DNA of 32,540 nucleotides from assembly GCA_947475175.1 (NCBI GenBank), contig CANJLN010000012.1, forward strand, positions 1 through 32,540, read 5' to 3'. A model generated the notes under the pieces. That model was not told where the DNA came from, made no database searches, and saw only the letters and a program-made list of their open reading frames with translations. Shown piece after piece: positions 3,214-19,736 of the stretch. A program made the translations under genes and the position numbers. How positions within the stretch are numbered: position 1 is the stretch's first letter; every line of letters begins with the position of its first letter. This stretch comes from Alphaproteobacteria bacterium. Its GTDB lineage: Bacteria; Pseudomonadota; Alphaproteobacteria; Paracaedibacterales; CAIULA01.

Positions 3214-3915
3214 ATGTCTGAAGATAACAAGAACGTAACCTCTGCTCATCTTTTGGTCGTTGATGATGACAGTCGTTTACGCACGTTGCTGGTTCAGTTT
3301 TTAACGGAACAAGGATTTCGGGTGCAGGCGGCCTCAAACGCTGCAGAAGCTAGATCTCAACTGGCATGCCATCATTTTGATGCCATCATTTTGGATGTGA
3401 TGATGCCAGGCGAAAGCGGTACTGATCTTACAAAAAGCTTAAGAGAAACAATGACGATACCTATTTTATTGTTAACAGCGTGTGATCAGCTTGATGATAA
3501 GGTCACCGGATTTGATCAGGGTGCTGATGATTATTTAACCAAACCTTTTGAACCTGTGGAATTATTGGCCCGTATTCGCTCTCTTATTCGTCGTTCAACT
3601 CTTTCTCATGATAAAATCTTGTCCGAGGTCAGTCTTGGGTTGTATAGATTCAACATGCAAAGCGGGCAGCTTTTATTCGAAAACGAGGCTATTTATCTGA
3701 CATCAACAGAAATGATTCTTCTTAGAACGCTATCACAAATACCTCATCAACCTTTTTCACGAGAAGAATTGGCCCAAAGAATTGGTCATCGAGTCAGCGA
3801 GCGAACTGTTGATGTACAAATTACGCGCCTTCGTAAAAAAGTTGGTGATGACCCTAAAAATCCACGCACCATTCAGACAATCAGACATATTGGATATGCC
3901 CTATGTCCCCATTAA
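3214..3915 (+). CDS. OmpR-family response regulator
   Basis: A two-component response regulator of 233 aa. The N-terminal receiver (about 12-125) has the acidic triad VVDDD (D17-D19), the phosphoacceptor D61 in ILDVMMPG, T88 in LLLTAC, and K110 in DDYLTKPFEP. The C-terminal winged-helix DNA-binding domain (about 135-232) has the family hallmarks LTSTEMILLRTL, SRE, RTVDVQITRLRKKVGDDP and IRHIGYAL. It overlaps the following kinase gene by 13 bp, so the two are translated together and form a cognate pair. The best guess is an envelope or osmotic-stress regulator like OmpR, based on the partner's EnvZ-like layout; targets cannot be read from the sequence. The start has little Shine-Dalgarno support. 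Confidence 0.93.
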   Translation: MSEDNKNVTSAHLLVVDDDSRLRTLLVQFLTEQGFRVQAASNAAEARSQLACHHFDAIILDVMMPGESGTDLTKSLRETMTIPILLLTACDQLDDKVTGFDQGADDYLTKPFEPVELLARIRSLIRRSTLSHDKILSEVSLGLYRFNMQSGQLLFENEAIYLTSTEMILLRTLSQIPHQPFSREELAQRIGHRVSERTVDVQITRLRKKVGDDPKNPRTIQTIRHIGYALCPH

Positions 3916-5246
3916 AGATACCCGCATTAAAAGTCGGCTTATTTCATCCCTGGAGGACGCTAAAGAAGCTACTCCCGCAGAGTTTATTTGGACGGTCGCT
4001 GATTATTTTGGTAACCCCCCTTATTCTTGTGCAAGTTGTTATGGGGTATATCTTTTTTGATCGCCATACGGAAACAATCTTAAGACTGTTATCGGATACA
4101 ATTGCCGGTGATATTGCCTTGGTTCTAGATTGTGTTGAAAAAGGAGATGATTTTCAAAGAATCAAAGACCTAGCACAACGTAACCTTAGCTTAGATTTAT
4201 CGTTGGATTCTGAAAATACCTTGGAAAAGGTTGGCGTGCATCGTCATTCGTGGCTCTATTCTTTTTTAGATGCTGCCCTTAATGAAAAAATAAAAGCCTC
4301 TTATTTTGTGAGGATGGATAGCGATTCTATTTACATTTCTATTAACAGCAGCAAGGGCGTGCTGAAAATAAAACTATCCAGAAAGCGCTTGTTCAGTCGC
4401 ACAACACCCCTTGTAATTATTTGGACGGCTGTTTCGTCTATTCTCTTATTTGGTGTGGCTTCTTTATTTATGCGCAACCAAATTCGCCCCATTAGAAGAT
4501 TATCTGAAGCCGCTGAGCGATTTGGACGCGGAGATGAAAGTCTCCCCTTTAAACCTGAGGGAGCAACAGAAGTGCGCAAAGCTGGATTTGCATTCTTGTT
4601 GATGCGGGATCGTCTAAAACGGCAACTATCTGATCGATTGGAAATGTTGGCAGGGGTGTCGCATGACCTTAGAACGCCCCTTACACGGATGAAGTTGCAA
4701 TTGACATTGATGAAGGAAGAAGAAGAATTAAAAGCTCTGAAACAAGATGTTCTTGTTATGCAAGAAATGATCGAGGGGTTTTTAACCTATGCCCGAGGAG
4801 CGGGTGACGAAGAAGCAAAAGAAATTTTAATTCAGGACGTTCTCAAACCAATTATTGATCAAATAAAAACCGCAGATTTCCAAATTACTTTAGAGTGTTT
4901 TGAAAATACAAAAATTCTTTTAAAGGTAGGAATTTTTAACCGTTGCTTAACTAATTTACTGTTAAACTCCAAACGGTATGGAAAGAGTGCTGTCGTTAAA
5001 GTACAAACACAGCCTCGCCATTTGCAGATAATTATTGATGATGATGGTCCAGGTATACCATCAATTGAGCGGGAAAATGTTTTCCGTCCATTTTACAGAC
5101 TGGACCAGGCGCGGAATTTAGATAGCGGTGGCGTGGGCTTAGGGCTCAGCATTGCAAGAGATGCAACAAGAAGCCATGGGGGGCAGATTTATCTGCGGCA
5201 ATCACCGATGGGGGGGTTGCGGGTTGTCATACGGCTTCCTCTCTAA
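3903..5246 (+). CDS. EnvZ-like membrane sensor histidine kinase
   Basis: A 447-aa inner-membrane kinase for the preceding OmpR-type regulator. TM1 is at about 33-52 (LIILVTPLILVQVVMGYIFF), followed by a periplasmic domain to about 165, TM2 at about 168-190, and a HAMP linker beginning RNQIRPIRRLSEAAERFGRG. The HisKA box is GVSHDLRTPLTRMK with phospho-His H254. The HATPase domain has an N-box NLLLNSKRYG, G1 box DDDGPGIP and G2 box GVGLGLSI. Length and order match EnvZ. It starts inside the end of the regulator gene, which argues for translational coupling. About 90 bp separates its stop from the phasin gene, so those two need not share a transcript. Confidence 0.92.
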   Translation: MSPLKIPALKVGLFHPWRTLKKLLPQSLFGRSLIILVTPLILVQVVMGYIFFDRHTETILRLLSDTIAGDIALVLDCVEKGDDFQRIKDLAQRNLSLDLSLDSENTLEKVGVHRHSWLYSFLDAALNEKIKASYFVRMDSDSIYISINSSKGVLKIKLSRKRLFSRTTPLVIIWTAVSSILLFGVASLFMRNQIRPIRRLSEAAERFGRGDESLPFKPEGATEVRKAGFAFLLMRDRLKRQLSDRLEMLAGVSHDLRTPLTRMKLQLTLMKEEEELKALKQDVLVMQEMIEGFLTYARGAGDEEAKEILIQDVLKPIIDQIKTADFQITLECFENTKILLKVGIFNRCLTNLLLNSKRYGKSAVVKVQTQPRHLQIIIDDDGPGIPSIERENVFRPFYRLDQARNLDSGGVGLGLSIARDATRSHGGQIYLRQSPMGGLRVVIRLPL

Positions 5247-6820: not shown

Positions 6821-8305
6821 ATGGGTTTATATATTAATACGAACGTGGCAGCTCAAGGTACGAGTACGACATTACGTGGTTTATCTGACCATTTAGCAAA
6901 AGGCCAACAACGCTTAGCGGCCGGTACTAAGAGTGTGTCTGATGACGCATCTAGCGCATCGGTGGGATTTGCCATTTCAGCGACAATTGGGTCCTTATCA
7001 CAAGCATCAAGTAATGCTGCGCAGGGTAGTGCTTTGTTGCAATTGGGTATGGCAGCATTATCGTCAACGGAAGCAGTATTCCAACGTATGAATCAGCTAG
7101 CGGCGCAGGCAAACTCTGACTCTATCGATGATACACGTCGCGGAATGATTGACCAAGAATTCCAAAAGTTGCTAATTCAAGTTGATACAAACGCGGCAAC
7201 GAAATGGTTTAGTACGTCATTGTTTTCGGGTAGTGCAGCAACAAGTACAGGTTCTGCAGTCACTGCTACTGCTGCTCTCGTTGCTGTAGCAAATGCTTTT
7301 AATTCTAGCGTTCCCACAATTGCTGGTTTTGTTAATGGCGCAGTAAGTAATGCTGTAACTACCGCAACTGGTGTTGCCAATACGTATAGTGTGTCAGTCC
7401 AAGTTGGAAACCAAACATTTACAAACTTAGCTGTTACCGGGGATAATGCTGGAAACTTTACATTAACCAGTACATCAAACTCGAACAACACAATTAGCCT
7501 TGCCTTTGATACGGCTGCCACAAGCACTGCCGTAAAGAATAATTTAGCCAACAACTTCGCGGCAAATCTTGCTACAGCTCTTGGTGCTACCTTTCAGAGT
7601 GGAGAAATATCGCTTGCTTCTTTTTCAGGTGTTACATTTGATGCGGCGACTTCGGGTGTGACAGCGGGTCAGTGGGGAGTATATTATACATACGCTGATA
7701 ATCTTGGTACGTTCACTCTTACAAATGGCGCAGAGACTTACGTGCAGACTGTTAATGCTTCTGTTTTGACCCCTGCTGCTGCAGAAACAGTTTCTTTTTC
7801 TAACGGTCTCAGCATTAATTTGAGCACTTCTTTTGCTCTTCAAACAAACTCTGGAACGCTAAATGCCCCACATTCAATTAATATTACGGCGGGTACTCTA
7901 CCAACTTTTGCTTTCCAGACGGGTCAGGCTTCATCAGATACCACATCTGTGAGCTTTACTGGTGCTAGCGCTTCTGCGCTTTCTTTAACGGGAATAGATG
8001 TCACAACAACAACTAACGCAGCAGCTGCTACAACCGCAATTCTAACCGCGATGACAACGGTTGCAACTCAAATTGCGGTACTCGGTGGTGTGAATAGTCA
8101 GCTGGGTTACCTGAGTGATAACTTGGCGGCTTCGATTCAAAACCAAACAGCAACGAGAGCGACCTTTACGGACATTGACGTTGCTACGGAATTGACTGAT
8201 GTACAAAGATTGAATGCAAATATTCAGGTTGCTCAAACTATGTTTACGCAGTCAATGAAAAGCTTTTCGAGCAAGGCAGAGCTTGTGCAATCAGCAGCTC
8301 GTTAA
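6821..8305 (+). CDS. Flagellin
   Basis: The filament subunit, 494 aa. The N-terminal D0/D1 region has MGLYINTNVAAQGTS, LAKGQQRLAAGTKSVSDDAS and VGFAISATIGS, then the helix MNQLAAQANSDSIDDTRRGMI. The C-terminal D1/D0 region (about 415-494) has GVNSQLGYLSDNL, RATFTDIDVATELTD and NIQVAQTMFTQSMKS, ending QSAAR. The middle (about 130-410) is a Ser/Thr/Ala-rich variable domain, as expected for the surface-exposed part. The start follows a GTGAGG Shine-Dalgarno and a sigma-54 promoter. fliD and fliS lie downstream, completing a filament cluster. The C-terminus is slightly divergent from the usual LSLLR ending but the family assignment is firm. Confidence 0.93.
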   Translation: MGLYINTNVAAQGTSTTLRGLSDHLAKGQQRLAAGTKSVSDDASSASVGFAISATIGSLSQASSNAAQGSALLQLGMAALSSTEAVFQRMNQLAAQANSDSIDDTRRGMIDQEFQKLLIQVDTNAATKWFSTSLFSGSAATSTGSAVTATAALVAVANAFNSSVPTIAGFVNGAVSNAVTTATGVANTYSVSVQVGNQTFTNLAVTGDNAGNFTLTSTSNSNNTISLAFDTAATSTAVKNNLANNFAANLATALGATFQSGEISLASFSGVTFDAATSGVTAGQWGVYYTYADNLGTFTLTNGAETYVQTVNASVLTPAAAETVSFSNGLSINLSTSFALQTNSGTLNAPHSINITAGTLPTFAFQTGQASSDTTSVSFTGASASALSLTGIDVTTTTNAAAATTAILTAMTTVATQIAVLGGVNSQLGYLSDNLAASIQNQTATRATFTDIDVATELTDVQRLNANIQVAQTMFTQSMKSFSSKAELVQSAAR

Positions 8306-8319
8306 GGATAGACTAAATA

Positions 8320-8342
8320 AAGGCTAGTGGAAAATTAGCCTT
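8320..8342 (+). terminator. Weak hairpin after flagellin
   Basis: AAGGCTA (8320-8326) and TAGCCTT (8336-8342) form a 7-bp stem with a 9-nt loop, 15 bp past the flagellin stop. The following bases (CGTCATTG) are not a T-run, so it may attenuate or protect the 3' end rather than terminate strongly. Confidence 0.4.
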
Positions 8343-8428
8343 CGTCATTGCGAGGAGCTATTGCTCCGTGGCAATCCAGAAAAAAATACAACTGGATCGC
8401 CACAGCCCTTGCGGGCTTCGCGATGACG
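8343..8428. repeat. Palindromic element with CGTCAT/ATGACG ends
   Basis: An 86-bp element begins CGTCATTGCGAGGAGC and ends CGCGATGACG, with internal matches GGCAATCCAG and CTGGATCGCC flanking an A-rich centre. Its layout matches the widespread CGTCATTGCGAGG-type intergenic repeats of alpha- and gammaproteobacteria. It differs in body from the CCTCGGA palindromes but shares the GTCAT...ATGAC termini. Confidence 0.8.
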
Positions 8429-8438
8429 GTACCACCAC

Positions 8439-8466
8439 TGTCATCCTCGGACTTGTTCCGAGGATC
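8439..8466 (-). repeat. Palindromic repeat unit
   Basis: A further 28-bp copy, TGTCATCCTCGGA through TCCGAGGATC, in the flagellin-fliD gap. It is the last copy seen in the window. Confidence 0.9.
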
Positions 8467-8533
8467 TCAGAACGACATTGTAGAGTGTGAGAATAACATT
8501 GAAGCAGTTTTCTAACCAAAAACAGGAGATTAT

Positions 8534-10648
8534 ATGCCCGGAGGGATGACCGTCAGCGCATCAGGCACAACTCAATTTGGCCAGGCGAAAATTGATAAAG
8601 AAGGGCATTTTAAATTAACCCAAAAGGTTGATGGTCTTGATATGCTTGCCGAATTCGAAGCAATGGCTGATGCTCAACGATTGCGAGCAAAACCGTACGA
8701 GGACCAAATTGATACTGACAAAACCAAGGTACTTCCTGAACTTGCAGCTTTAGAAGCTAAAACTTCTGCCTTGCAAAAAGCTGTTTCAGGTCTGACAAAC
8801 TTTATTGGATATGACACATCTTCAGTACCCAATGCTTTTCAAAGTAAAGAAGCCTCTATTCTTCCTGGAGCAGATAATTCAGTTTTCTTGACGGTGACTC
8901 AAAGTGCTGTTGCGTCGTCTGTTCCTATGACTTTTGCAGTCCAGCAAATGGCCAAAAATGATTCTGTGAGCACAACACTTTCAAAAAATTTCAGCCCCAC
9001 TGTGTCAATGACAACTGATCCAACAATCGCGCTTGCATTAACGGGTGACTTGGTGATTAATGGACAAACAGTTACTATTAATCCAGCTATGACGCTGGAT
9101 GATATTAATACAGCCGTTGGGGTAATTGCAGGTGCTGCTAATATCACCGTGGGTATAAACGGATCTGGGGATTCTTCTTATCTTGTTTTAACAAGTTCTG
9201 TTGCAAATCCTGTTATCGATCTGACTGGCACTGACCCCGCTATTTCGACTGGTTTAGCTTTAACAACTGACCAAGTTGACCCAACAATTGCGCTTGGGAT
9301 GTCAGGAGATTTGGTCATGAATGGTGAAACTGTCACTGTTACAACCACAATGTCTTTAACTGACATTCGAAATGCGATTAATGCCGTTGGTGCCGTTGCT
9401 AGTGTAACCACACAACTTTTAAATTTATCATCAACCGATGGTTATAAACTGACAATAACGTCAACCGAAACAGCTGTCCCTATTGACTTTACGGGGACAT
9501 CAGCATCTCTTCAGGGATCTAATGGTCTCGGCTTACCCTCTTCAAATACAACACTTGATAGCCTGGTCGCTAAATTTACCTATAATGGCGACAATGTTGT
9601 CAGAACGACGAATCAAGTTGCAGATCTGATCACGGGTGTTACGATTAATCTTCAGAGCGAAAGCACTCCTCCTGGCGCCACCTCAGCCATTATTGGTATT
9701 GATGCTAACAATATTTATTCGACCATCGTTACTTTTGTTAAAAGCTATAACGATGTCGTTGAACAAATTGACAAGAATCAAAAAGCAACCATGAAAGGAG
9801 GTAATGGTGAAGTGGAGGTTGATTCTGAAGCGGTCTTGTATGGAAAAAAGATTTTAAGAGATTTAAAGGATATGATGACAAGTTTTGCGGGCCAAGCGCC
9901 TTCAGGCTTATCTTCGGGGAATCCTTACAAGGCTCTTCCTGACATTGGTATTAAGTTTGTCGAAAATAATCCTGATGAAGCAGATCGCAATATATCTGGA
10001 AAATTGTATCTAGATACTGACACTCTCAAAAGTGTTCTTAACACGCAAACTAACATTCCGTATGTAGCAGAGTTTTTGGGTAATAGTGCCACGGTTACAA
10101 GCAGCTATTTTAGCGTGGGTTATTTTCCAGTTAATCTTAATCCTTTGGTAGCAGGACAACCGATAACGGTTACTTATATTAACAATGGAGATGCTACTTT
10201 TTCAGCGACTTTAAGTGTGCCAGGGCAAGCAGTGGTCACAATTGATCCTTTGCCCAATGTGAAAATCATTAATGGTCCCGCTGGATCCATTTTCGAGGGG
10301 TTAACAATTGGTTACTCAAGCGAAGCGCCGGTCCCTTCTTTTGGGGATCCTGAAACAACAATAATTACGTTAACGCAAGGCATTGCTGATAATTTTAATA
10401 ATTCTTTAAAAAGTGCTTTGCAAAAGGCCGCGAATGGTGGACCACCAGTAGGCATGTTTGAAAGCGCGGTTGATCTTATCAAGAAAAAAGATGAACAGCT
10501 TACAGGACAGGTCAAGCGTATTAACGACGCTGCTGATCGATTCTTAGCAAGATTAGAAGCGAAAATTGGTCAAGTGTACCAAGCTGCTGATAAGGCAAAA
10601 TCGATTGTCAGCATCATCGATGCTTTTAATAATATGGGTAGGGATTAA
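8534..10648 (+). CDS. fliD: Flagellar hook-associated protein 2 (filament cap)
   Basis: FliD caps the growing filament and helps flagellin fold. The N-terminal FliD domain (about 30-150) includes KVDGLDMLAEFEAMADAQRLRAKPYEDQID and MTFAVQQMAKNDSV. The C-terminal domain (about 380-700) includes SYNDVVEQIDKN, GEVEVDSEAVLYGKKILRDLKDMM, LPDIGIKFVEN and a terminal amphipathic helix VKRINDAADRFLARLEAKIGQVY. At 704 aa it is longer than the roughly 450-500 of enterics. Part of the excess is an internal duplication: residues 162-245 and 249-335 both begin DPTIAL..(T/S)GDLV(I/M)NG(Q/E)TVT, an 87-residue period resembling flagellin hook-IN motifs. AGGAG lies 6 bases before the ATG. fliS follows after 12 bp, so the two are cotranscribed. 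Confidence 0.9.
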   Translation: MPGGMTVSASGTTQFGQAKIDKEGHFKLTQKVDGLDMLAEFEAMADAQRLRAKPYEDQIDTDKTKVLPELAALEAKTSALQKAVSGLTNFIGYDTSSVPNAFQSKEASILPGADNSVFLTVTQSAVASSVPMTFAVQQMAKNDSVSTTLSKNFSPTVSMTTDPTIALALTGDLVINGQTVTINPAMTLDDINTAVGVIAGAANITVGINGSGDSSYLVLTSSVANPVIDLTGTDPAISTGLALTTDQVDPTIALGMSGDLVMNGETVTVTTTMSLTDIRNAINAVGAVASVTTQLLNLSSTDGYKLTITSTETAVPIDFTGTSASLQGSNGLGLPSSNTTLDSLVAKFTYNGDNVVRTTNQVADLITGVTINLQSESTPPGATSAIIGIDANNIYSTIVTFVKSYNDVVEQIDKNQKATMKGGNGEVEVDSEAVLYGKKILRDLKDMMTSFAGQAPSGLSSGNPYKALPDIGIKFVENNPDEADRNISGKLYLDTDTLKSVLNTQTNIPYVAEFLGNSATVTSSYFSVGYFPVNLNPLVAGQPITVTYINNGDATFSATLSVPGQAVVTIDPLPNVKIINGPAGSIFEGLTIGYSSEAPVPSFGDPETTIITLTQGIADNFNNSLKSALQKAANGGPPVGMFESAVDLIKKKDEQLTGQVKRINDAADRFLARLEAKIGQVYQAADKAKSIVSIIDAFNNMGRD

Positions 10649-10660
10649 AGGATAAAAAAA

Positions 10661-11116
10661 ATGCAAAAAAGTCTTAATAATTATAAAAACAGCCGTTTAT
10701 CAGTTACGCCAGAAAACATGCACTTGCACATTGCGATGTTGTTTGAAAAAGCAGCCATTCTTTTGGCGCAATCTGCAGCAGAAAAAGAAAATAAAGAATT
10801 CGAGGCATACGCTGTAAATATCCAAAAATCGATGAAGATACTGACTAGTTTAATTGGAATTTTGGATCCCAATGATGTTGAGGCGATTCAAAGTGGAGCG
10901 CCCCTAAAGCCCAATCCGTGGGACAGTTATTTTACCTCTGTTTTTTTAACGTTGAACGAGATAGCACTCAAAAACAATAAATCAAAGCTTCATACTCTTG
11001 TTAAAAGTTTGAAAGATGTTGCAAAAATGTGGCGAAATCAGGGCAAGTTGCAACCAGACGGTGCATCGTTTCAATCTTCATCGGACCAATCAGTTGGGAT
11101 GACGTTGAGCTGTTAG
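10661..11116 (+). CDS. fliS: Flagellin export chaperone
   Basis: FliS binds the flagellin C-terminus in the cytoplasm and prevents premature polymerisation. This is a 151-aa helical protein starting 12 bp after fliD. Features are the opening SLNNYKNSRL, the helix LHIAMLFEKAAILLAQSAAEKE (the family's 'L..LY..A...L..A' segment), IQKSMKILTSLIGILD (about 53-68), and the C-terminal helix LHTLVKSLKDVAKMWRNQ, equivalent to the 'L..LR..W' end of FliS. Similarity is recognisable but diverged. Gene order with fliD and flagellin is the strongest support. Confidence 0.85.
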   Translation: MQKSLNNYKNSRLSVTPENMHLHIAMLFEKAAILLAQSAAEKENKEFEAYAVNIQKSMKILTSLIGILDPNDVEAIQSGAPLKPNPWDSYFTSVFLTLNEIALKNNKSKLHTLVKSLKDVAKMWRNQGKLQPDGASFQSSSDQSVGMTLSC

Positions 11117-16614: not shown

Positions 16615-16926
16615 CAAACAATATGTGCAATATAATTTCAAAATAGCAATTTTATTTCCTATTCTTTATGAATATCCGACTCTTTATTTGTTTTTTACCA
16701 TATTAAATAGGTAGCAAGCAAAGAAGAATCGTGATATCAACACAACTGTAAGTTAAGATTTTATGAATATGAGACTCTTAACATTTATTTAAAGAAGTCT
16801 ATTAAGCTTTGCGTTTACCGAGTAAAAATACGAGAGTCGTCTTAATCTTTGGGTGCTAACTGAAAGCACTTTTGGAGAAGGTATGATGTTTTCGAAAGTA
16901 CTTAGAAAATATTTGAGGGCATAAAG
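16615..16926. promoter_or_regulatory. Control region of the PAS-GAF kinase gene, with a direct repeat and stem-loop
   Basis: This 312-bp gap holds a near-perfect 22-bp direct repeat at 16665-16686 and 16760-16781 (TTTATGAATAT-nn-GACTCTT core, 19 of 22 identical, 95 bp apart). The second copy overlaps an inverted repeat GTTAAGA/TCTTAAC (16752-16758 and 16776-16782). A weaker relative, GAGTCGTCTTAATC, lies near 16830. The sites look like operators. Just before the kinase gene is the short leader frame listed separately. Confidence 0.5.
16883..16924 (+). CDS. Possible 13-codon leader peptide ahead of the kinase gene
   Basis: A strong Shine-Dalgarno GGAGAAGG (16874-16881) precedes ATGATG, giving MMFSKVLRKYLRA and a TAA at 16922-16924. 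The stop ends two bases before the TTG start of the kinase, in a different frame. The kinase's own start is otherwise weak (TTG, poor ribosome-binding site). The frame may therefore deliver ribosomes to it by coupling, or be a remnant of an older N-terminus split off by a small indel. Nothing proves it is translated. Confidence 0.4.
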   Translation: MMFSKVLRKYLRA

Positions 16927-18963
16927 TTGAAAACGAATTTTAAGATACCAGAAGTTTTCGTGAGGGTTGACGGTGAGCCGCCTGACTCTTCTTCTTGCAC
17001 CCCAAAGATGGGTTTCTGGGATTGGGATGTTTTGGAGGGAAAAATATACCTTTCAAATCACTTTTGTCACATTCTGGGTTATAGCGAAGATGAAATCAGT
17101 TCTACTCATCCCGATGAATGGAAAAAATATATTCATCCAGAGGATTTGATAAAGCTGACCGAAGTAATGAATTCTCACTTAAGTGGAATTACTCTTGCCT
17201 TTGAAATGGAGGCTCGATTTCTTCACAAGTCTGGCGAGTGGAAATGGATCCTCAATAGTGGGAAAGTTACGGAGAAAGATGAAAGCAGTATCCCTTTACG
17301 AGTCATCGGGGTTCATCTTGATACGACCAAGCTAAAAGAAAAAGAACAGCCATTAGGACTCAATGAAGATTTGCTGAAAGCAATCAAAACATTCCAATCG
17401 GATTATTTTGAAACTGATGACTATGGAAAAATTTTCGATCAATTATTGGAAACAGTCATCCGATTAACAAACAGTGAGTGTGGATTTATTGGTGAGGTTG
17501 CTGAAGGTGAAGACAAAAGAATTTATCTAAAGCCTTGTGCTTCCAAAAGTATAGAAAACATTTTAGAAACGGCTCAATTACAAAAGGTTCTCTATTTGAG
17601 CGAAATAGACTCTTATCCACTACAATTCTTATTGAAACACGTTATTGACGAAAAAGAAGTCGTTATTGTTGAAGAACATTCTCTCAGACAATCTCAATTG
17701 AGAAGTTTTATGGGAATTCCTATTTGCACTGACGAAAAATTGATTGCAGTTTTAGGGATTGCTAACAGGCCCGGAAATTACAACAAAGAGGTTCTGGATT
17801 ATTTAGAGCCCTTAATGGTAACTATTGGAAATCTTATTGAAGCACGTGATCATGTGCATCTTCAAATAGAAACAGAACAGATTCTAAAGCTCTTTATAAA
17901 GAATAATCCAGCGGCAGTCGCTATGTTTGATCATGATCTTGGTTATCTTTTAACAAGCGATGCGTGGCTTAAAGATTATGATTTACATGATTCTGACATT
18001 ACCGTAAAAAGCCTGTATGAAACGTTTCCAGATATTCCTCAAAGATGGAGGCAATTAAAAAAAACTTGTTTGCAAGGAAAAGTTGAGATTTCCGAAGAAG
18101 AAGAATTAACAATGCCAAGTGGAGAAACAGCATGGATAAGGTGGGAAGCTCATCCTTGGTACAAGTCTGACAAGACAATTGGCGGTGTTATTCTTTTTAC
18201 TGAAATAATAACCGAGTATAAAAACGCTCGCTTAAAAATGCAAAAAATGATTGATGATTTAACACGCTCTAATCGCGAATTGGAAAGATTTGCCTATATC
18301 TGTTCGCATGACTTAAAAGAACCGCTGAGAGCTATTTCTAGTTTCATCCATCTTATTCATAGACATAATGCTGGTTCTTTTGATTCTGAGACACAAGAGT
18401 ATTTTAACTTTGTGCAAAAAGGTGTCCAGAGAATGAAAAGCCTGATTGAAGATATTTTGGTATACTCAAAAGTTGATTCTGAGAATGCTCACCATACGAT
18501 TGTTTCAATTGAGAATGTTATTTCAGAAATCAAAGAGATACTTTCTCTTAAATTGGCGGAGTCTAAAACCACAATCGAAACAGGGTATCTTCCTGAGATT
18601 TATGGTGATCATACACAAATTACGCAACTTTTTAAAAATCTAATTGAAAATTCAATCAAATTTCGCTCTTCTACAAATCCAATAATTAAGATAGAAGCAA
18701 CAAGTAAGGATGGATATTGGCAGTTTGTTGTGCGAGATAATGGTATAGGGATACCAGAAGAGTACCATGACAAGATTTTTCTAATGTTTGAACGATTGCA
18801 TGGTAGAGAAATGTACGAAGGTTCGGGAATTGGTTTGTCTGTCTGTAAAAAAATTGTAGAGTACCACGGTGGAAAAATAGAAGTGAGATCCAACAAGTCT
18901 GGTGGATGTGATTTTTGTTTTACTCTTCCCTCGGGATTGATTAAACACAAACTTATAGCGTGA
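16927..18963 (+). CDS. Soluble multidomain sensor histidine kinase (PAS-GAF-PAS-HisKA-HATPase)
   Basis: A 678-aa kinase with no transmembrane segment, so it senses a cytoplasmic signal. PAS_3-type domain at about 28-136 (GFWDWDVLEGKIYLS, GYSEDEI, HPEDL, GEWKWILNSGKV). GAF-like domain at about 160-315 (SECGFIGEV, SFMGIPI, LGIANRPGNYNKEVLDYLEPLM). Second PAS at about 318-435 (NNPAAVAMFDHDLGYL, WIRWEAHPW). HisKA has RFAYICSHDLKEPLRAIS with H461, the phytochrome/bacteriophytochrome-like type. HATPase has NLIENSIKF, DNGIGIPEEY and GSGIGLSVCKKIVEYHGG. No chromophore Cys or PHY domain is apparent. It starts with TTG; an ATG at codon 28 would cut into the PAS domain. It overlaps or abuts the next gene, a receiver protein that should be its partner. 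Confidence 0.9.
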   Translation: MKTNFKIPEVFVRVDGEPPDSSSCTPKMGFWDWDVLEGKIYLSNHFCHILGYSEDEISSTHPDEWKKYIHPEDLIKLTEVMNSHLSGITLAFEMEARFLHKSGEWKWILNSGKVTEKDESSIPLRVIGVHLDTTKLKEKEQPLGLNEDLLKAIKTFQSDYFETDDYGKIFDQLLETVIRLTNSECGFIGEVAEGEDKRIYLKPCASKSIENILETAQLQKVLYLSEIDSYPLQFLLKHVIDEKEVVIVEEHSLRQSQLRSFMGIPICTDEKLIAVLGIANRPGNYNKEVLDYLEPLMVTIGNLIEARDHVHLQIETEQILKLFIKNNPAAVAMFDHDLGYLLTSDAWLKDYDLHDSDITVKSLYETFPDIPQRWRQLKKTCLQGKVEISEEEELTMPSGETAWIRWEAHPWYKSDKTIGGVILFTEIITEYKNARLKMQKMIDDLTRSNRELERFAYICSHDLKEPLRAISSFIHLIHRHNAGSFDSETQEYFNFVQKGVQRMKSLIEDILVYSKVDSENAHHTIVSIENVISEIKEILSLKLAESKTTIETGYLPEIYGDHTQITQLFKNLIENSIKFRSSTNPIIKIEATSKDGYWQFVVRDNGIGIPEEYHDKIFLMFERLHGREMYEGSGIGLSVCKKIVEYHGGKIEVRSNKSGGCDFCFTLPSGLIKHKLIA

Positions 18964-18974
18964 TGAGGGTGACA

Positions 18975-19736
18975 ATGGACGATATCGCTTTAGATAGCAT
19001 TAAAGAACTCGATATACACGTCGGAAAACGCTTAAGGGAAAAACGACAAAAACTTGGGATGACTCTGGCTTATGTTGCGGAGCGCTTGGGGGTATCTCAT
19101 CAACAAATCCAAAAATACGAACAAGCTCAAAGCCGTATTTCAGCAGGCATGTTATACCAAATTGGTCAATTGTACGGCGTTCCATCTCATTATTTTTTTG
19201 ATGGATTTCAAAGTCTAAAACAAAAACTTGGTGAAAGACAAAATACGGATATTATTTGTCACAATCGTGAAAAAGCTTTAAATATTCTTCTTGTTGAAGA
19301 TGATCCAACAGATGAACTTTTAACCAGACGCGCCCTTGAAGCAGCTGATCAGAAAGTAAATATTTTTTGTGTTCATGATGGTGCGCAGGCCATTGAGTTT
19401 CTTCGTTACAAAACAATGAATGTCGATTTTCCAAGACCTGATATTGTCCTTCTTGATCTGAACATTCCAAAACGTGACGGACACGATGTCTTAAAAGAGA
19501 TCAAAAGAGATCGAGATATACAAGACATTCCCGTTGTCATTTTAACAAATAGCATTAGCGTTCAAGAGATGATTGCTGTCTACAAGAATCAAGCTTCTGG
19601 CTATATTAGCAAGTCTTTCGATTATGATTTATTTCAAAAAAGCATGATTGGTTTTGTTGAATATTGGTCTTTAGTGGTCGTTTTACCGAATACATCCCAA
19701 GATATAGAGTGTATTCCCCTCAGACAAGCTGTGTAG
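18975..19736 (+). CDS. XRE-type HTH domain fused to an Rcp1-like receiver domain
   Basis: A 253-aa protein. An N-terminal Cro/CI helix-turn-helix (about 14-75: VGKRLREKRQKLGMTLAYVAERLGVSHQQIQKYEQAQSRIS...LYGVPSHYFFDG, split here as one domain) is of the common alphaproteobacterial type. After a linker comes a complete receiver (about 102-230): VEDDPTDE, D161 in VLLDLNIPKRDG, T191 in LTNS, K213 in GYISKSFD. These features are typical of Rcp1-like receivers, which usually stand alone beside phytochrome-like kinases. The order HTH-then-receiver reverses that of OmpR or NarL proteins. I start at ATG 18975, five bases after GAGGG; ATG 18963 and GTG 18960, overlapping the kinase stop, are alternatives. 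Likely a DNA-binding output of the adjacent kinase. Confidence 0.88.
   Translation: MDDIALDSIKELDIHVGKRLREKRQKLGMTLAYVAERLGVSHQQIQKYEQAQSRISAGMLYQIGQLYGVPSHYFFDGFQSLKQKLGERQNTDIICHNREKALNILLVEDDPTDELLTRRALEAADQKVNIFCVHDGAQAIEFLRYKTMNVDFPRPDIVLLDLNIPKRDGHDVLKEIKRDRDIQDIPVVILTNSISVQEMIAVYKNQASGYISKSFDYDLFQKSMIGFVEYWSLVVVLPNTSQDIECIPLRQAV

Follow-up and report, generated by a model that had tools for sequence, protein, structure and literature searches.

We identified XRR, our label for a fusion regulator of helix-turn-helix (HTH) and receiver domains, which is probably a two-component transcription factor in which a PraR-class head is held under phospho-control by an Rcp1-class receiver, and which is probably autoregulatory. 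Its gene follows that of a soluble sensor kinase in the window, by which we mean the whole stretch of 32,540 nucleotides analyzed here. The family to which XRR belongs is conserved across small-genome, largely host-associated Holosporales-type alphaproteobacteria and is apparently uncharacterized: our search of the open-access literature found no description of an XRE-receiver fusion, which bears out an earlier preliminary description of the architecture as little described in this lineage. The kinase-regulator unit comprises the following features.

16927 to 18963, forward strand: soluble sensor histidine kinase (PAS-GAF-PAS-HisKA-HATPase), likely cognate, with the H-box ICSHDLKEPLRAIS.
18975 to 19736, forward strand: XRR fusion regulator, N-terminal Cro/CI HTH and C-terminal Rcp1-type receiver, 253 aa from the ATG at 18975.
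19032 to 19193, forward strand: HTH_3 domain of XRR (Pfam E 2.4e-13), with the recognition helix SHQQIQKYE.
19284 to 19631, forward strand: receiver domain of XRR (Pfam Response_reg E 5.1e-19), with D161 (codon 19455-19457), T191 and K213.

HTH_3 and Response_reg were both detected by Pfam within a single uninterrupted frame (18960-19736), at E-values far beyond chance. The receiver retains the acidic pair (in EDD), the phospho-accepting D161, the Thr/Ser residue T191 and the lysine K213, and is followed by an Rcp1-like C-terminal tail, YW..VV.LP. The complete Cro/CI HTH ahead of a complete receiver noted in the preliminary description is thereby confirmed, with residues numbered from the ATG at 18975; counted from the GTG at 18960, they become D166, T196 and K218. 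By Pfam, the output domain comes first and the receiver last, the reverse of OmpR/NarL/NtrC-type regulators. The AlphaFold model (mean pLDDT 84, pTM 0.60) comprises a helical HTH, a short linker and the receiver; the linker is flexible and of low confidence, with pLDDT below 50 at residues 88-91. Among the structures listed, no solved chain covered both domains.

The kinase/XRR join reads gcgTGAtgAGGGtgacaATGgac. The ATG at 18975 appears to be the best start of XRR on sequence grounds, being preceded at 5 nt by AGGG and also fitting the N-termini of relatives, and the two genes therefore most likely lie end to end, 11 nt apart. The listed start, the GTG at 18960, which overlaps the kinase stop codon (TGA, 18961-18963), and the ATG at 18963, which overlaps it as well, are possible alternatives. 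Of the overlap or abutment reported earlier, abutment is thus the more likely. That two separate genes were merely made to look fused by an assembly error or a frameshift has a practically negligible probability: no frameshift was present at the HTH/receiver junction, no point in favor of this reading was found, and it is refuted by approximately 50 orthologues that carry the same domain order intact in one frame in separately assembled genomes, including the complete plasmid of Candidatus Paracaedibacter acanthamoebae.

A profile search matched 33 of the 42 genomes of the window's order, about 31 of them at full length; the matches in G018 and G011 are truncated at contig ends and were excluded from the latter count. 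Among 385 genomes sampled across the class, full-length matches occurred in 18 genomes outside the order, all small (0.7-2.3 Mb), whereas larger genomes matched through the receiver only and carry separate receivers and HTH proteins. Within a phylum sample of 398 genomes, full-length matches were confined to the window's own genome and one of the 18. The fusion is thus no isolated oddity but belongs to a lineage-wide family, which refines the preliminary description. The nearest relatives of XRR share 96% identity (same genus code), followed by proteins at 85-86% and then at 57-69%. The orthologue in Candidatus Paracaedibacter acanthamoebae (WP_051908914.1) is annotated merely as a response regulator, and further labelled members come from metagenome-assembled genomes named Paracaedibacteraceae, Holosporales or Holosporaceae. 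In Candidatus Paracaedibacter acanthamoebae the fusion resides on a 15-kb plasmid (NZ_CP008942.1) together with a separate receiver and a PAS kinase. Among the hits examined together with apparent fusions on Rhodococcus and Shinella plasmids, it alone was real; the others were rejected, as the alignment crossed a stop codon or entered unrelated upstream sequence. In one genome (G040), a stop codon between HTH and receiver splits the gene, representing a pseudogene or a re-separation. The receivers from 50 fusions fell on one side of a branch separating them from 18 stand-alone receivers (SH-aLRT 100, by a quick method), and since the fused receivers form one clade, a single old fusion event is likely, judged against this small sample of stand-alone receivers.

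We then considered the neighboring kinase as the source of the input. Pfam assigned PAS_3, GAF_2, PAS_4, HisKA and HATPase_c domains to it and returned no match for PHY, the domain that would mark a phytochrome-type partner. Across the family the picture is divided: 24 of the 50 fusions have a kinase gene no more than about 210 nt away, and none adjoins the remaining 26. In relatives the kinase is mostly directly upstream on the same strand, although downstream, convergent and divergent placements occur as well. These kinases are related in their catalytic part and differ in the PAS and GAF sets of the sensor part. At two loci (L118 and L120), two histidine kinases stand in tandem before the fusion gene. 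A few of the fusions without a kinase sit near contig ends, and a kinase may therefore have been overlooked in some of these cases.

Retention of the receiver residues followed kinase adjacency. Asp, Thr/Ser and Lys were intact in all 24 kinase-adjacent fusions, whereas at least one was lost in 8 of the 26 others (Fisher p 0.004, ignoring shared ancestry), the losses being Asp in five, Lys in two and Thr in one (T to A); the truncated copy L161, which would add a sixth loss of Asp, was excluded from the counts. For Asp alone the association reached p 0.051, and with the acidic pair counted too, 1 of 24 kinase-adjacent fusions (L124) and 8 of 26 others were defective (p 0.024), shared ancestry again being ignored in both. 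The kinase frame beside L124 is short or truncated, at 183 aa. When kinase adjacency and Asp retention were compared within phylogenetic pairs, too few of the pairs were informative, and the result was not significant. On the basis of adjacency and co-retention of receiver residues, the PAS-GAF-PAS kinase is likely the cognate kinase of XRR; the pairing proposed in the preliminary description thus stands as likely, a related kinase accompanying the orthologous regulator in relatives.

Five orthologues (L121, L147, L151, L154 and L159) have the phospho-Asp replaced, by N, E, E, S and S, respectively, and keep the HTH. These are possible phosphorylation-independent derivatives, and because some relatives lack both an adjacent kinase and the Asp, an XRR-type protein can persist without phosphorylation. 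Such copies, together with the fact that Rcp1-type receivers dimerize, would fit an XRE repressor with constitutive DNA binding, whose receiver is mainly a dimerization module and in which phosphorylation is minor or lost. For XRR itself we hold this to be unlikely, given that the copy in the window and all 24 kinase-adjacent copies keep Asp, Thr/Ser and Lys and that, across the family, fusions have a related kinase as their neighbor.

The HTH motif of XRR, (S/T)xQQ(I/V)QKYE, is common to short stand-alone XREs of many alphaproteobacteria, and the XRE of Caulobacter phage CcrColossus is 47% identical to the XRR HTH over 68 residues. In the literature, this class is represented by PraR, CdxA, PhrR and TgrL (PMC10688885). 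We propose that the XRR HTH belongs to the PraR/CdxA/TgrL class, an assignment based on the helix they have in common and on the similarity to the phage protein, with unnamed alphaproteobacterial XREs and one Caulobacter phage XRE standing in for PraR as the comparison set. The members of the PraR/CdxA type are short and carry no receiver, which by Pfam is not the case for XRR. The SELEX consensus for PraR of Azorhizobium and Rhizobium leguminosarum is CAAC-N5-GTTG (PMC5527310); a later MEME analysis in R. leguminosarum yielded TTGCAA instead (PMC4149787).

Upstream of the kinase-regulator unit, two features were weighed as operators.

16743 to 16755, forward strand: candidate operator CAACTGTAAGTTA, one mismatch to CAAC-N5-GTTG.
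16665 to 16790, forward strand: 31-nt imperfect direct repeats (16665-16695 and 16760-16790), not conserved in relatives.

Alignment of the pgsA-kinase spacer from four family members revealed one well conserved block, at window positions 16724-16761, around CAAC-N5-GTT. The window's copy, a CAAC-N5-GTT(G/A) palindrome, lies within this best conserved intergenic block, and perfect CAAC-N5-GTTG copies occupy the matching place in L112-L114. The first pattern search was guided by the PraR consensus. In a screen independent of it, which counted every gapped 4-mer palindrome in the regions upstream of 51 fusion units, CAAC-N5-GTTG took first place, at 6 loci versus 0.22 expected. As three of these six loci are close relatives, we also counted by family: perfect sites occurred in 3 (f1, f13 and f31) of about 16 families, a number that 4 of 2000 shuffles also attained. 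We rejected the repeats at 16.6-16.9 kb, suggested as the binding site in the preliminary description, which probably meant the two given above, because they are missing from relatives whose regulator is 85% identical; the palindrome appears to be the better candidate operator by conservation. The second-ranked palindrome upstream of fusion units (L111-L164), GAAA-N11-TTTC, occurred at 14 loci versus 2.2 expected; it may serve the SIQQLQRYE subgroup as operator or may reflect shared ancestry.

The site could instead be bound by a stand-alone PraR-like XRE, the fusion having another operator. Five genomes (G001, G003, G004, G005 and G007) do carry a stand-alone XRE of the same recognition helix class, and fusions with the helix SIQQLQRYE or SLQQMHRYE have no perfect site upstream. 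We nevertheless regard this as improbable: the window's own genome (95% complete) contains no second HTH relative at E <= 0.01, and in three families the site occurs at the transcription unit of the fusion itself. A further alternative, that the N-terminal domain binds a partner protein rather than DNA upon receiver phosphorylation, has an alphaproteobacterial precedent in PhyR, which combines an N-terminal transcription-factor-like domain with a C-terminal receiver (PMC8103513). It is very improbable for XRR, as a class-matching operator is enriched upstream of fusions and few parts of the protein are as conserved as the helix that contacts DNA, which has S42, Q45, Y49 and E50 invariant in 19 sequences and is mostly kept even where the receiver has decayed.

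The window's own genome contains 42 perfect CAAC-N5-GTTG sites, most inside genes and only 5 of the 42 between them; no regulon is therefore visible, and a genome-wide regulon based on perfect sites was rejected. One attractive site, located 35 nt ahead of an ATP/ADP translocase-like gene (L186, around 1490-1520), was discarded because it forms one arm of a hairpin and does not occur in relatives. R-body (reb) genes, considered by analogy with PraR in Azorhizobium, had no perfect site directly upstream; the nearest one lies inside a neighboring gene, and most fusion-bearing genomes lack reb genes.

Collectively, our preferred reading of XRR as a phospho-controlled transcription factor would operate as follows. 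The soluble PAS-GAF-PAS kinase would sense a cytoplasmic cue and phosphorylate D161, altering the pairing of two receivers as in other Rcp1-type receivers, which in turn would change the seating of two XRE heads on a CAAC-N5-GTTG-class palindrome. Since one such site fronts the kinase-regulator unit, autoregulation of the pair is probable, and repression, the mode of PraR, is its most likely form. The order of the domains, the intact active site, the neighboring genes, the conservation across the lineage, the receiver clade and the enrichment of the operator are observed; phosphotransfer, direct DNA binding, the dimer switch and whether the regulation is positive or negative are steps that we infer.

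The genome carrying the window contains three clusters of RebB-family (R-body) genes outside it (L221, L222 and L223, on contigs C31, C54 and C50), and such genes were found in only two other genomes of the 42 in the order; the clusters suggest a Caedibacter/Caedimonas-like endosymbiont. The window also encodes a second, ordinary OmpR/EnvZ-type two-component pair (3214-5246) and, named from their translations, flagellin, FliD and FliS-like genes together (6821-11116) in this presumed endosymbiont. Reduced-genome endosymbionts keep few regulators, and this genome has about 7 receiver domains. A family that is retained throughout the lineage, has a predicted operator and frequently neighbors a kinase gene offers a concrete entry point to how these bacteria sense the host-cell interior. 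If our reading is true, XRR exemplifies a stand-alone XRE repressor brought under two-component control by a receiver placed behind its DNA-binding head. The broader proposal, that one ancient fusion put a PraR-type repressor under histidine-kinase control and thereby made it a core element in regulating the host-associated life of Holosporales-type endosymbionts, retained even in genomes of 0.7-1.0 Mb, is rather doubtful.

Among known systems, the nearest solved receivers, by sequence and by fold, are Rcp1, RcpA and RcpB, which share with XRR the receiver fold, the active site, about 36-37% structural-alignment identity, the YW..LP tail and a HisKA-type partner kinase. They are, however, single-domain proteins without a DNA-binding head, whereas XRR has HTH_3 in the same frame, and their partners are phytochromes, unlike the neighboring kinase of XRR, which by Pfam has no PHY domain. 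With the PraR/CdxA/PhrR/TgrL class, XRR shares the QQ[IV]QKYE helix, and its HTH has about 40-48% identity with short XREs of alphaproteobacteria and of a Caulobacter phage; perfect copies of the PraR consensus stand at the fusion's promoter in some XRR relatives, as against one mismatch in the window. The proteins of this class lack a receiver, and for PraR the controlling partner is the anti-repressor CinS rather than a histidine kinase (PMC10688885). The reversed layout emphasized in the preliminary description is unusual, as claimed, but not unique. PhyR, of the alphaproteobacterial general stress response, likewise places a transcription-factor-like domain before a C-terminal receiver with histidine kinase input, although that domain is sigma-like (PMC8103513) and mimics a sigma factor to bind NepR; that of XRR is a Cro/CI HTH, its N-terminus matching only HTH_3-type families in Pfam. 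The archaeal LtrR and FilR1 are further precedents, with an HTH or wHTH ahead of a C-terminal receiver (PMC5847659), and their likeness to the bacterial XRR is one of domain order.
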